This document shows, piece by piece, positions 56,735 to 61,067 of a stretch of 64,000 nt of DNA. Both the position numbers and the translations under genes were made by a program. The notes beneath the pieces are model-generated. The model did no database searches and was not told where the DNA came from. It worked only from the letters and a program-made list of their open reading frames with translations. Origin of the DNA: Microbacterium keratanolyticum. Lineage in GTDB: Bacteria > Actinomycetota > Actinomycetes > Actinomycetales > Microbacteriaceae. The stretch spans positions 2,480,001 to 2,544,000 of the forward strand of contig NZ_JAFBBQ010000001.1 of assembly GCF_016907255.1 (NCBI RefSeq), read 5' to 3'. The stretch's first letter is position 1. Each line of letters opens with the position of its first letter.

Positions 56735-57250
56735 CTAGTTGTCGGAGTCGCGTGCGCGCCGGTGTCGGATCGCCATCGGCACGACCAGCCACAGGATGAG
56801 GACGAGCAGGGACGACGCCACGAGAGTGATGAGTGCCGCCGTACGGTGCATCGTGAAGTCGATGATCAGCGTGGTCACGCCCACGCTCAGCGCACCGATC
56901 ACCAGCAGATCGATCCGAACAATCAGCGCCGCATGCCGCACCAGAACGGGTTTCAGCTGCTTCCCGAACAGTGCGCGGTGCAGCCCCACCGGCGCAAGGG
57001 CGAGGACCGTCGCGAGCGCGGCCAGCAGCACCAGGATGACGTAGAGGCTCACCTGCGCGGCATCCAGCTCTGTGAATCGGGGCTGGAACGCAACGGCGAG
57101 CAGAAACCCCGTGAGGATCTGCGTACCGGTCTGCATGACGCGCAGTTCTTGAAGGAGCTCCTCCCAGTTGCGGTCGGCGCGCTCGATCGCCGTCTCCTGG
57201 CGGCCGTCATCGCGATCGTCGTGCCTGTGTTCGTCCGACTCCGAGGTCAT
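56735..57250 (-). CDS. DUF6328-like membrane protein
   Basis: 171-residue protein with a charged N-terminus (SESDEHRHDDRDDGRQETAI) and the stretch NWEELLQELRVMQTGTQILT (about residues 28-47), then four transmembrane segments (about 46-62, 70-92, 108-128 and 135-158). The pattern matches DUF6328 proteins of actinobacteria as I recall them. The ATG follows CAAGAT by 6 bases. Function unknown. Confidence 0.78.
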   Translation of the reverse strand: MTSESDEHRHDDRDDGRQETAIERADRNWEELLQELRVMQTGTQILTGFLLAVAFQPRFTELDAAQVSLYVILVLLAALATVLALAPVGLHRALFGKQLKPVLVRHAALIVRIDLLVIGALSVGVTTLIIDFTMHRTAALITLVASSLLVLILWLVVPMAIRHRRARDSDN

Positions 57251-57324
57251 GCCCTTATCTTGCCAGCGCATGGCGCGTCCGACGAGATGGTCTGGCGCTT
57301 GGCCCATGTGCGGAGGGAGCGGCG

Positions 57325-57330
57325 TAGCAT
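57325..57330 (+). promoter_or_regulatory. -10 box of the cysteine-rich peptide gene
   Basis: TAGCAT ends 6 bases before the ATG at 57337, the same spacing as at many confirmed gene starts in this window. It predicts transcription beginning at the start codon and so a leaderless mRNA. No clear -35 hexamer is visible. Confidence 0.6.
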
Positions 57331-57336
57331 GGGGGG

Positions 57337-57474
57337 ATGACCACGCCGACCCCTCCTGCATCCGCACCCCTCACGACCCCGCTTCAGGCGCCGCCGGGGT
57401 CGCTGAACCTGCTGCCGGTCGATGAGACGGCAGGCGGATGCTGTGGCGGAGGCGCCTGCAGCACAGGCCTCTGA
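57337..57474 (+). CDS. 45-residue cysteine-rich peptide, unknown function
   Basis: A short frame read as MTTPTPPASAPLTT, then PLQAPPGSLNLLPVDET and the tail AGGCCGGGACSTGL. The first half is Thr/Pro/Ala-rich and disordered; the end carries CC-x4-C within a glycine run. It has all the parts of a gene: a TAGCAT -10 box 6 bases upstream, an ATG, a stop, and a terminator 16 bases after the stop. No same-strand gene follows, so it is not a leader peptide for attenuation. Metal binding or a peptide-maturation precursor is possible, but no modifying enzyme is adjacent. Confidence 0.65.
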   Translation: MTTPTPPASAPLTTPLQAPPGSLNLLPVDETAGGCCGGGACSTGL

Positions 57475-57489
57475 GCCCATGACGACAGA

Positions 57490-57519
57490 GAACCCCCGCA
57501 CACGGATGTGCGGGGGTTC
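57490..57519 (+). terminator. Intrinsic terminator after the cysteine-rich peptide gene
   Basis: GAACCCCCGCACA (57490-57502) and TGTGCGGGGGTTC (57507-57519) form a perfect 13-bp stem with a CGGA loop, followed by TTTCG. It is 16 bases after the peptide stop and 15 bases from the stop of the convergent MFS gene. Confidence 0.85.
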
Positions 57520-57533
57520 TTTCGTGTGCGCGG

Positions 57534-59021
57534 TCAGTGACCGTGGCCTGCAGGAGCCTCAGCGGGGTTGTCGGCGGGCTTGCGGATGAAGAACGCGCCG
57601 ACGATCGTGATCGTCGCGATGATCGCACCCAGCACGAAGGCCAGACGCGAGCCGTGCGCCACGGCCTCTGGGACGTGGCTGCCGCCGCCGGCGTTCACGG
57701 CGACCGTGAACACGGCCATCATCACGGCGATGCCCGCGGCACCGGCCACCTGCTGTACGGTGCCGATCACCGCGCTGCCGTAGGAGTAGAACTTCGGCTG
57801 CAGCGAGGCCAGCGCTGCCGTGAACAGCGGCGTGAACGACAGCGCGAGTCCGACCGAGAGCGCGGTCTGCGCCACGACGACGAGCCAGAGAGGCGTCGCC
57901 TCGGTGAACGACGTGAACAGCCACAGCATGCTCGCTGCCATGATCGCACCGGGAACCAGGAGGATCCGCGTGCCGTGCAGGTCGTAGATCCGGCCGATGA
58001 GCGGACCGAGCAGACCCATGGCCAGGGCGCCCGGCAGCGCGACGAGGCCTGCGTCCATCGCCGGCAGACCCATGGCGTTCTGCAGGAACAGCGGCACGAC
58101 CGTGATCGATCCGAAGAAGGCGAGGGCCAGCAGGAACATCTGTGCCATCGACAGCGTGAAGTCGCGAGAGCGGAACACGCGCAGGTCGAGCAGCGCGTCA
58201 TCCTTCTTCTGCAGTACGACCTGGCGCCAGAGGAACAGGGCGAGACCCACGACCCCGACACCCAGAGCGATGAGCAGCGGGGCGGGGGAGACGGCGGTGC
58301 CCGCGAGCGCGCCGATCTGGCTGAGGCCGAAGACAAGACCTCCGAAGCCGAGAGCCGACAGCAGGATCGAGAGCACATCGATGGGAGCATCCATCGTCTC
58401 GCCGACATTCGTCAGCCAGCGCCACCCGATGAAGAGCGCGACGAGCGCGATCGGGAGCACGATGAAGAAGATCGAGCGCCATCCGAGGTGGTCGAGCAGG
58501 AAGCCGGACAGCGTCGGGCCGATCGCCGGGGCGAGCGACATCACGATGCTCACCCGGCCCATCATGCGACCGCGCGCCGCGGGCGGCACGAGGTTCATGA
58601 TGGTCGTCATAAGCAGCGGCATCATCATCGCGGTGCCCGCCGCCTGCACGACCCGTGCGACGAGGAGCATTTCGAAGCCGAAGGCGAGTGCCGCCATGAG
58701 CGTTCCCACTGAGAACAGCGAGAGCGCGGCGAGGAAGATCTGACGCGTCGTGAAGCGGCGCAGCAGGAATCCGGTGATCGGAATCACGACGGCCATCGTG
58801 AGCATGAAGGCGCTCGTGACCCACTGGGCGGCAAGCGGCGAGATGCCGAGGTCGTCCATGAGGTGCGGGATCGCGATGCCCATGGTCGTCTCGTTCAGGA
58901 TCGCGACGAAGGCCGCGGTCAGCAGTACCCAGATCACGCGCATATCGCGACGCGGGATCAGGGTCTTGGGCTCCTCGGCGGAGGAGATCACGGGGGTCGC
59001 CCCGGTGTCGACAGCAGACAA
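57534..59021 (-). CDS. MFS multidrug exporter, DHA2 family
   Basis: 495-residue transporter with 14 predicted helices. DHA2 features include AILNETTMGIAIPHLMDDLG (TM1, about residues 41-60), WVTSAFMLTMAVVIPITGFL near residue 66, motif A-like LLRRFTTRQIFL and motif C in TM5 (SIVMSLAPAIGPTLSGFLLD, about residue 155). It likely exports drugs by proton antiport. The start is TTG at 59021 with GGAGGA at good spacing; longer frames run far into the ABC exporter's region. No TetR or MarR regulator lies next to it. The divergent neighbour is also an exporter. Confidence 0.92.
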   Translation of the reverse strand: MSAVDTGATPVISSAEEPKTLIPRRDMRVIWVLLTAAFVAILNETTMGIAIPHLMDDLGISPLAAQWVTSAFMLTMAVVIPITGFLLRRFTTRQIFLAALSLFSVGTLMAALAFGFEMLLVARVVQAAGTAMMMPLLMTTIMNLVPPAARGRMMGRVSIVMSLAPAIGPTLSGFLLDHLGWRSIFFIVLPIALVALFIGWRWLTNVGETMDAPIDVLSILLSALGFGGLVFGLSQIGALAGTAVSPAPLLIALGVGVVGLALFLWRQVVLQKKDDALLDLRVFRSRDFTLSMAQMFLLALAFFGSITVVPLFLQNAMGLPAMDAGLVALPGALAMGLLGPLIGRIYDLHGTRILLVPGAIMAASMLWLFTSFTEATPLWLVVVAQTALSVGLALSFTPLFTAALASLQPKFYSYGSAVIGTVQQVAGAAGIAVMMAVFTVAVNAGGGSHVPEAVAHGSRLAFVLGAIIATITIVGAFFIRKPADNPAEAPAGHGH

Positions 59022-59156: not shown

Positions 59157-61067
59157 ATGAGCATGCATGGCGGCCCGGGCGGACGCGGCGGAGGATTCCG
59201 CGGAGTCGACGAGGCGGCGCAGAAGCGAGAGAACGCCGCCGCACCCGTGATCGAGAGACTCGGCGCGCGGGTCGTCGCGCTGTTCCGTCCCTACCTCGGA
59301 CGCATCGTCATCACCGGTCTGCTCGTCATCGTCGGTGCAGCGATCGCTGTGATTCCGCCGTTGCTCGTCCAGCGCATCTTCGACGACGCGCTCTTCCCGG
59401 TCGAAGGCGGCGCGCCGCAGCTCAACCTGCTGGTGGTGCTCGTCTCCGTGATGATCGGGCTCTTCCTCCTCTCGGCCGGCCTCGGCGTCGCGCAGACCTG
59501 GTTCACCTCGACCGTCGGAAACAGCGTCACGGGTGACCTCCGCGTACGTCTGTTCGAGCATCTGCAGGCCATGGAGCTCGGGTTCTTCACGCGCACGAAG
59601 ACTGGCGTCATCCAATCCCGGCTGCAGAACGATGTGGGCGGCGTCGCCGGTGTGCTCACGAACACCGTCACCAGCATCCTCGGCAATGTGGTCACCGTGA
59701 TCGCATCGCTGGTGGCGATGATCCTCATCGACTGGCGCCTCACCCTGATCGCCGTCGTCCTGATGCCCTTCCTTGTGCTCGTGCAGCGCAAGGTCGGGCA
59801 GGTGCGTGCGCGCATCGCGGGCGAGACGCAGGAGTCGCTGTCCGAGCTCACCTCGATCACGCAGGAGACGCTGAGCGTCTCAGGCATGCTGCTGTCGAAG
59901 TCGTTCAACCGGCAGCGCACCGAGTCGTCCCGCTATCAGCGCGAGAACCGCAACCAGGTCGTGCTGCAGGTGCGGCGGGCCATGAGCGGGCAGGGTTTCT
60001 TCGCCGTCGTCCAGGTGATCATGGCGAGTGTTCCCGCTGTCATCTACCTCGTCTCCGGCTACCTGATCACGGGCGGCAGCGATGCCATCACCGCCGGGAC
60101 GATCGTGGCTTTCACGACGGTGCAGGCGCGCCTGCTGCAGCCGCTCATGGGTCTCATGCGCGTCGCGCTCGACCTGCAGACGTCCAAGGCGCTGTTCGCG
60201 CGGATCTTCGAGTACCTCGACATGGTCCCGCAGATCCAGGATGCCCCGGGGGCGATCACCGTCGCCCAGGCTCCGGGGCCCCGTGGTCGCATCGAGTTCC
60301 GTGATGTGGTGTTCCGCTACCCGGATGCCACGGCCGACTCGCGCCCGACGCTGCAGGGGGTGTCGTTCGTCGCCGAGCCCGGACAGCACGTGGCCTTCGT
60401 GGGGCCGTCGGGCGCAGGAAAGACCACGATCCTGTACCTCGCCCCGCGCCTGTACGAGGTGCATGATGGGCAGGTCCTGTTCGGGGGCGCGGACGTGCGT
60501 GCTCTGACTCAGGCGTCGATCATCGACGACGTGGGCATCGTCTCGCAGGAGACGTACCTCTTCCATGCGACGATCCGCGAGAACCTGCTGTACGCGAAGC
60601 CCGACGCGACCGAGGACGAGCTGATCGCCGCGTGCACGGCGGCGAACATCCACCACATCATCGCGGGCTTCGAGCGCGGCTACGACACCGTGGTCGGTGA
60701 GCGCGGGTACCGACTCTCGGGTGGCGAGAAGCAGCGCATCGCGATCGCACGGGTGCTTCTGAAGGATCCGCCCGTGCTTCTGCTCGACGAAGCGACCTCG
60801 GCCCTCGACACGGTGTCCGAGCGCGTGGTGCAGGAGGCTCTCGACGAGGCGGCGCGAGGACGCACGACGCTGTCGATCGCGCACCGCCTCTCGACGGTCA
60901 TGGCCGCCGACGTCATCCATGTGCTGGAGGCGGGACGGATCGTCGAGTCGGGGACGCACCGTGAGCTCATCGCGCGGGGAGGGCTCTACTCCGACCTCGC
61001 GGCGCAGCAGCTGGCGGCGTCGCATGTCCTGCAGGACGAGGAACGGATCGCCGCGGAGAGCGACTGA
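59157..61067 (+). CDS. ABC exporter, fused permease and ATPase
   Basis: 636-residue half-transporter that functions as a dimer. Six transmembrane segments lie between about residues 48 and 350; the ABC domain follows with Walker A VGPSGAGKTTILY (about residue 416), Q-loop VSQETYLFHATIREN near residue 462, signature RLSGGEKQRIAIARVLLKDP near residue 519, Walker B VLLLDEATSALD and the H-loop SIAHRLST. The Gly-rich N-terminus (MHGGPGGRGGGFRGV) is cytoplasmic. TACGCT (59145-59150) lies 6 bases before the ATG. The substrate is unknown; lipids or drugs are usual for this branch. Confidence 0.93.
   Translation: MSMHGGPGGRGGGFRGVDEAAQKRENAAAPVIERLGARVVALFRPYLGRIVITGLLVIVGAAIAVIPPLLVQRIFDDALFPVEGGAPQLNLLVVLVSVMIGLFLLSAGLGVAQTWFTSTVGNSVTGDLRVRLFEHLQAMELGFFTRTKTGVIQSRLQNDVGGVAGVLTNTVTSILGNVVTVIASLVAMILIDWRLTLIAVVLMPFLVLVQRKVGQVRARIAGETQESLSELTSITQETLSVSGMLLSKSFNRQRTESSRYQRENRNQVVLQVRRAMSGQGFFAVVQVIMASVPAVIYLVSGYLITGGSDAITAGTIVAFTTVQARLLQPLMGLMRVALDLQTSKALFARIFEYLDMVPQIQDAPGAITVAQAPGPRGRIEFRDVVFRYPDATADSRPTLQGVSFVAEPGQHVAFVGPSGAGKTTILYLAPRLYEVHDGQVLFGGADVRALTQASIIDDVGIVSQETYLFHATIRENLLYAKPDATEDELIAACTAANIHHIIAGFERGYDTVVGERGYRLSGGEKQRIAIARVLLKDPPVLLLDEATSALDTVSERVVQEALDEAARGRTTLSIAHRLSTVMAADVIHVLEAGRIVESGTHRELIARGGLYSDLAAQQLAASHVLQDEERIAAESD

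Follow-up and report, generated by a model that had tools for sequence, protein, structure and literature searches.

The window analysed here is a stretch of 64,000 nucleotides from Microbacterium keratanolyticum (contig NZ_JAFBBQ010000001.1, positions 2,480,001 to 2,544,000), and our subject is a 45-codon gene on its plus strand (57337..57474; ATG at 57337, TGA at 57472-57474), whose product we propose to be a free form of the C-terminal CX4C arm of the oxidoreductase FrnE. Six bases ahead of the ATG stands a -10 box, TAGCAT (57325..57330, plus strand), which is taken as a leaderless-type promoter from the sequence and from the promoter logo of 124 family members. The full peptide, MTTPTPPASAPLTTPLQAPPGSLNLLPVDETAGGCCGGGACSTGL, ends in GGCCGGGACSTGL and contains three cysteines (C35, C36, and C41), of which the latter two make up the C36-x4-C41 dithiol of the motif CCGGGAC (57439..57459, plus strand); residues 22-26 form a hydrophobic lead-in, SLNLL (57400..57414, plus strand). 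Between the convergent 3' ends that follow, structure prediction gives a perfect 13-bp hairpin (57490..57519; stem 57490-57502/57507-57519, loop CGGA), a probable terminator. The convergent gene encodes an MFS transporter (57534..58964, minus strand; start codon uncertain, upstream of 58964), a conserved neighbour for which no partnership is claimed. A divergent gene upstream encodes a DUF6328 membrane protein (56735..57250, minus strand) and is a neighbour only, and the next same-strand gene called in the window is an ABC gene at 59157. This layout agrees with the first-pass annotation, made from the letters alone, which had described the box, the six-base gap, the ATG, 45 codons and stop, a 13-bp terminator and no same-strand gene behind, i.e., a stand-alone leaderless mini-gene easily overlooked by gene finders. 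Promoter and terminator scans list nothing at 57325-57519 because of their consensus rules (the terminator scan, in which the hairpin is missing, asks for five T in eight), and an Rfam search of the window returned a tRNA as its sole match and no RNA element at the peptide gene.

The window peptide is the product of a real gene. From a first search of 58 genomes, in which true same-genus relatives were chosen by eye, a 19-row profile was built that found a match in 260 of 366 same-genus genomes at E<=0.01, the weakest matches being counted without inspection; all but three of these genomes have it once. Many family members are named Microbacterium in the database (among the best 120 of 289 matches). 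The 124 distinct members taken from fetched loci, with a start choice that favoured ATGs preceded by TANNNT, all begin with ATG, and TANNNT lies six or seven bases before it in 123 of them, the lone exception (L148) having TTGCAT. In the logo of the 124 promoters TAnnAT is nearly invariant and its flanks are conserved, while the -35 region is weak and C/G-rich. When the same loci, selected for containing the family, were scanned on both strands (872,608 bases) for TANNNT, a gap of six or seven bases, ATG and an open reading frame (ORF) of 30-60 residues, 125 occurrences were found; 123 belong to the family gene and carry the C-x4-C tail, which is absent from the others. A C-x4-C close to the C-terminus is present in 119/119 distinct peptides, which contain 2-5 cysteines, all within the last 20 residues (just two cysteines in 9/119). 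Over 46 independent same-length pairs (DNA 72-99% identical) the ratio of nonsynonymous to synonymous substitution rates (dN/dS) is 0.26 and pN is below pS in 45, whereas pN/pS rises to 1.6 and 2.4 in the two shifted frames. The gene thus holds up on the points by which the first-pass annotation had proposed to judge it, namely conservation of frame and cysteines, frameshifts among relatives, and dN/dS, which indicates purifying selection. Searches of Pfam and NCBIfam gave no matching family, and an AlphaFold look-up of the peptide gave no structure. As a side observation, the -10 region TAGCATGGa (window 57320-57340) is so constant over the 124 loci that it is well suited as a model for leaderless promoters in the genus.

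In other genera, the small relatives of the peptide that were met first sit directly behind a gene of the DsbA family, frnE. FrnE lies immediately upstream of the peptide in 3/3 genomes of the genus g100 and 4/4 Leucobacter genomes found by a search with the peptide, and just upstream of it in 9/9 named Leucobacter loci, some of which are from the same genomes. In two Leucobacter loci (L198 and L200) tandem FrnE paralogues precede the arm peptide. For the rest of the Microbacteriaceae, one genome was taken from each of 27 other genera regardless of the peptide: in 21, a rule-based scan finds a short ORF on the same strand that begins at the frnE stop or close to it and has a C-x4-C tail, and inspecting the frames of the other six by eye added three (G392, G421, and G423), making 24/27, and a C-x5-C variant (G395); in G437 and G439 neither rule nor eye found a C-x4-C ORF behind frnE. 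The start of the ORF overlaps the frnE stop exactly (ATGA/GTGA) in 17/27 by rule and in 21 with these four read by eye. As a control under nearly the same rule, such an ORF follows 35 of 524 other genes, with exact overlap in five, three of which are family members. Outside the family, an Arg-rich ORF in G036 passes the rule and is unlike the peptides, and G047 gives a C-x5-C reading.

The arm itself is known from DrFrnE of Deinococcus radiodurans. According to a review (PMC8945050), many FrnE proteins carry a C-terminal CX4C (residues 239-244 in DrFrnE), and examples of FrnE without the arm are named as well; in crystals, the arm of one DrFrnE molecule is placed at the active site of a second one, and under one condition an intermolecular Cys244-Cys22 disulfide is present. 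Changing the arm cysteines lowered the reduction of 5,5'-dithiobis(2-nitrobenzoic acid) with NADPH and thioredoxin reductase, while insulin reduction with dithiothreitol was independent of them (same source). The FrnE of the window genome (G000), a DsbA-family oxidoreductase that matches DrFrnE in the PDB with an E-value of 5e-57, stops short of the arm region, and its gene is 373 kb from the peptide gene. Among 80 chosen genomes searched with this FrnE a match was found in 77, and with the window genome the 3' end of frnE was examined in 78. A CX4C arm on FrnE itself is present in six: five of the 10 genomes from other families (G035, G038, G039, G041, and G052) and one, G099, of the same genus, whereas none of the 27 other genera of Microbacteriaceae has a fused arm. 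When a profile of 26 FrnE-linked peptides was searched against 177,635 PDB sequences, the top match was SCO1869 residues 206-238 (E 1.8e-5) and the next DrFrnE residues 221-249 (E 2.2e-4). The free peptides of the genus in turn align with the FrnE-linked peptides in hhalign (probability 95.5, E 1.4e-8, a single comparison), and a hidden Markov model (HMM) of the linked peptides recovers 56 of 80 family ORFs and no others among 5,729 ORFs at E<=0.01.

Within the genus the peptide and an arm-less FrnE are found together. All 32 examined genomes whose FrnE shares 66.8% identity or more with that of the window genome have CPWC in FrnE, no fused arm and a free peptide; 21 of these (including the window genome) were chosen as known peptide carriers and 11 are profile-negative genomes with a diverged peptide. 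No family-like ORF lies behind any FrnE examined in the genus; a 25-residue ORF behind FrnE in G004 satisfies the C-x4-C rule and is taken as chance because in G085 the equivalent frame carries Ser at both Cys positions. The diverged peptides were found by inspecting 24 of the 106 profile-negative genomes beside the MFS gene, where 20 have a C-x4-C peptide with the same leaderless layout (12, then three more, three more within 10 kb, and two more by HMM), with tails such as ..LCVDGFCRLPGAKD and ..VCADGVCGWPGAQPS. The last two, in G085 and G094, had been overlooked by the pattern rules and were recovered with a version of the HMM of FrnE-linked peptides built without CCGG peptides. In the MFS-gene neighbourhood of G026, G064, G098, and G099 (within 10 kb of the gene for the last two) no peptide was found; the FrnE-like proteins of G098 and G099 are only 34-36% identical to that of the window genome, and the one in G099 bears its own arm, CGPDGC.

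We therefore consider it likely, judging from sequence and gene order, that the window peptide represents FrnE's C-terminal CX4C arm, detached from this cytoplasmic oxidoreductase as a separate small protein. The grounds present in the sequences are conservation, purifying selection, a constant promoter, coupling to frnE elsewhere, the likeness of the linked peptides to FrnE arms and the arm-less FrnE of the genus. With somewhat less assurance, we favour the wider view that most of the genus has a split oxidoreductase in which FrnE and its regenerating arm are unlinked and the arm is a diffusible, leaderless mini-redoxin about 36-74 residues long, with the stop-start overlapping ORFs of sister genera as the intermediate. 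The history would run from a fused arm to an overlapping ORF at the frnE stop (in the family) and then to a free leaderless gene (in the genus), an order that comes from the distribution rather than from a tree. Both the peptide and the arm (DrFrnE, PDB 5cnw, and its relative SCO1869, PDB 3gl5) have a flexible linker, a hydrophobic lead-in, and a C-x4-C near the extreme C-terminus, and SLNLL is the proposed counterpart of the PLTML that precedes the DrFrnE arm cysteines. The flexible Thr/Pro-rich half may present SLNLL for docking on FrnE, the C36-x4-C41 dithiol would then exchange with the CPWC site, and the thioredoxin system would thereby recharge FrnE in trans. As the arm in the published crystals extends from one molecule to another, a free arm makes mechanistic sense. 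Unlike the arm, however, the peptide is a separate polypeptide, encoded here by an unlinked leaderless gene, and it usually reads CCGGGxC where arms have CGPDGC or CEDGQC. Since it is not part of the FrnE polypeptide, being a distant separate gene in a genome whose FrnE has no arm, we class it as working like the arm and probably descended from it, not as a FrnE protein. Two points weigh against this assignment: direct profile comparison of the peptides of this genus with the fused FrnE arms gave no match, so that the direct resemblance of the window peptide to the arms is weak, and function in trans is our inference, which also holds for the order in which the steps occurred, for a physical partnership with FrnE and for a redox role in the present organism. 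No description of a split FrnE arm was found in the literature searched, in which coverage of subscription journals is thin.

The surroundings of the gene were surveyed in the 124 loci for eight reference neighbours, the recognised neighbours being incompletely annotated. An MFS gene lies downstream on the opposite strand in 113/124, often with other genes in between. The transporter was considered as the partner of the peptide and rejected; the association is treated as synteny because the peptide is missing within 1.5 kb of the 3' ends of related MFS genes at 28 loci of other genera. Near the MFS genes of other genera of the family, another small leaderless-type ORF recurs (43-53 residues, acidic, ending in DGPAPAP; L241, L242, L243, L256, and L259, minus strand as oriented there). 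Oxidative-damage genes (Fpg, Dps, DJ-1/PfpI, and CMD) recur near the peptide gene in sets that vary among loci, consistent with an oxidative-stress setting.

These neighbours also fit a different or broader partnership, in which a peptide descended from the FrnE arm now acts as a redox sensor or small dithiol carrier for further proteins of the thioredoxin fold, for instance DsbH/YyaL. The peptide gene is unlinked from frnE and has its own promoter, and close to its C-terminus the window genome's DsbH protein reads DCRAFVCRLP, which follows the C-x4-C-x2-P pattern seen in diverged members. We regard this as improbable, because the co-occurrence of peptide and arm-less FrnE in all 32 genomes favours FrnE as the partner. 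The DsbH/YyaL-type thioredoxin-domain protein is encoded at L262:1498-3339 (near 2410871 on contig C1 of the window genome), and C-x4-C-x2-P is also seen in some FrnE arms. A little less probable again is a thiol-rich, metallothionein-like peptide binding Cu, Zn or Cd. The clustering of two to five cysteines in the last 20 residues would suit it, as would the reported cadmium induction of DrFrnE (PMC8945050), but C-x4-C alone is invariant and some members have no further cysteine. Mycobacterial MymT is a small bacterial metallothionein; the peptides resemble such proteins in being small and containing cysteine, and differ in having only two invariant cysteines and no recognised metal context. 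Metal binding keeps some standing because a near-identical stretch, NSLNLLGDQSAAGGCCGGGACMCGHG, heads two HMA copper chaperones (L087 and L088) as an N-terminal extension, beside a P-type ATPase gene. Among the recognised neighbours, on the other hand, whose annotation is not exhaustive, nothing stands out as a gene for copper or zinc transport, and the iron-storage protein Dps is near in 7/124 loci. A copper link through this extension was followed to the window genome and dropped, the chaperone there having no N-terminal Cys extension. Chaperones with the extension (NSLNLLGDQSAAGGCCGGGACMCGHG, EQAGGCCGGGCCST) were seen at L087:1438-1869 and L088:1438-1872 and also in L082, L178, and L180, and a P-type ATPase gene adjoins the chaperone in L082, L087, L088, and L180; the extension is possibly a reused arm module, or convergent.

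Two further explanations are disfavoured, both as very improbable. Leaderless Cys-rich ORFs have been reported as attenuators in mycobacteria (PMC4633059 and PMC9031893), and the present gene is alike in being leaderless and tiny with Cys codons near its end, which might control a downstream gene; a same-strand membrane-protein gene follows in 42/124 loci and an Fpg gene in four. In the window, where the convergent MFS gene comes next, and in the remaining loci, none of the eight reference neighbours was recognised close behind on the same strand, and therefore there is no constant attenuator target; unlike the mycobacterial ORFs, moreover, the peptide sequence is itself under selection. The first-pass annotation had already argued against an attenuator here, and this is borne out in this genome. 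The conserved 167-residue membrane protein of the 42 loci (e.g., L032:7928-8431) is without a Pfam match. A precursor of a modified natural product, i.e., a lanthipeptide or thiazolyl peptide, is suggested by a leader-like N-terminus, a Cys-rich C-terminus and two names assigned automatically in UniRef, 'FxLD family lantipeptide' and 'Thiazolylpeptide-type bacteriocin', which a few members among the matches listed bear. The peptides are, however, conserved very broadly across the genus and have no NCBIfam match or modifying enzyme among their recognised neighbours; YcaO is present in 8/99 sampled genus genomes and a lantibiotic dehydratase in 3/99 (two over the cut-off), and neither YcaO nor a lantibiotic dehydratase (Lant_dehydr_N) was found in the window genome. 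These names, not borne out by the enzymes of the sampled genomes, thus look wrong, and the same peptides are listed in UniRef as uncharacterised 'hypothetical proteins' of Microbacterium and Leucobacter. The first-pass annotation had suggested a metal-binding peptide or a peptide precursor; neither is the best reading, as sequence and gene order point to the FrnE arm.

Assignment to the FrnE arm provides a function that can be tested for a family of small proteins that is present in the majority of genomes of a large genus and has hitherto been called hypothetical or misnamed lantipeptide. It suggests a stepwise route, from fused arm through overlapping ORF to unlinked gene, along which the regenerating arm of a redox enzyme may pass to a gene of its own. 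With a split arm, the question that the DrFrnE crystals raise, whether action is in cis or in trans, becomes open to direct test. A separate arm would allow regeneration of the reductase to be set independently of the enzyme.
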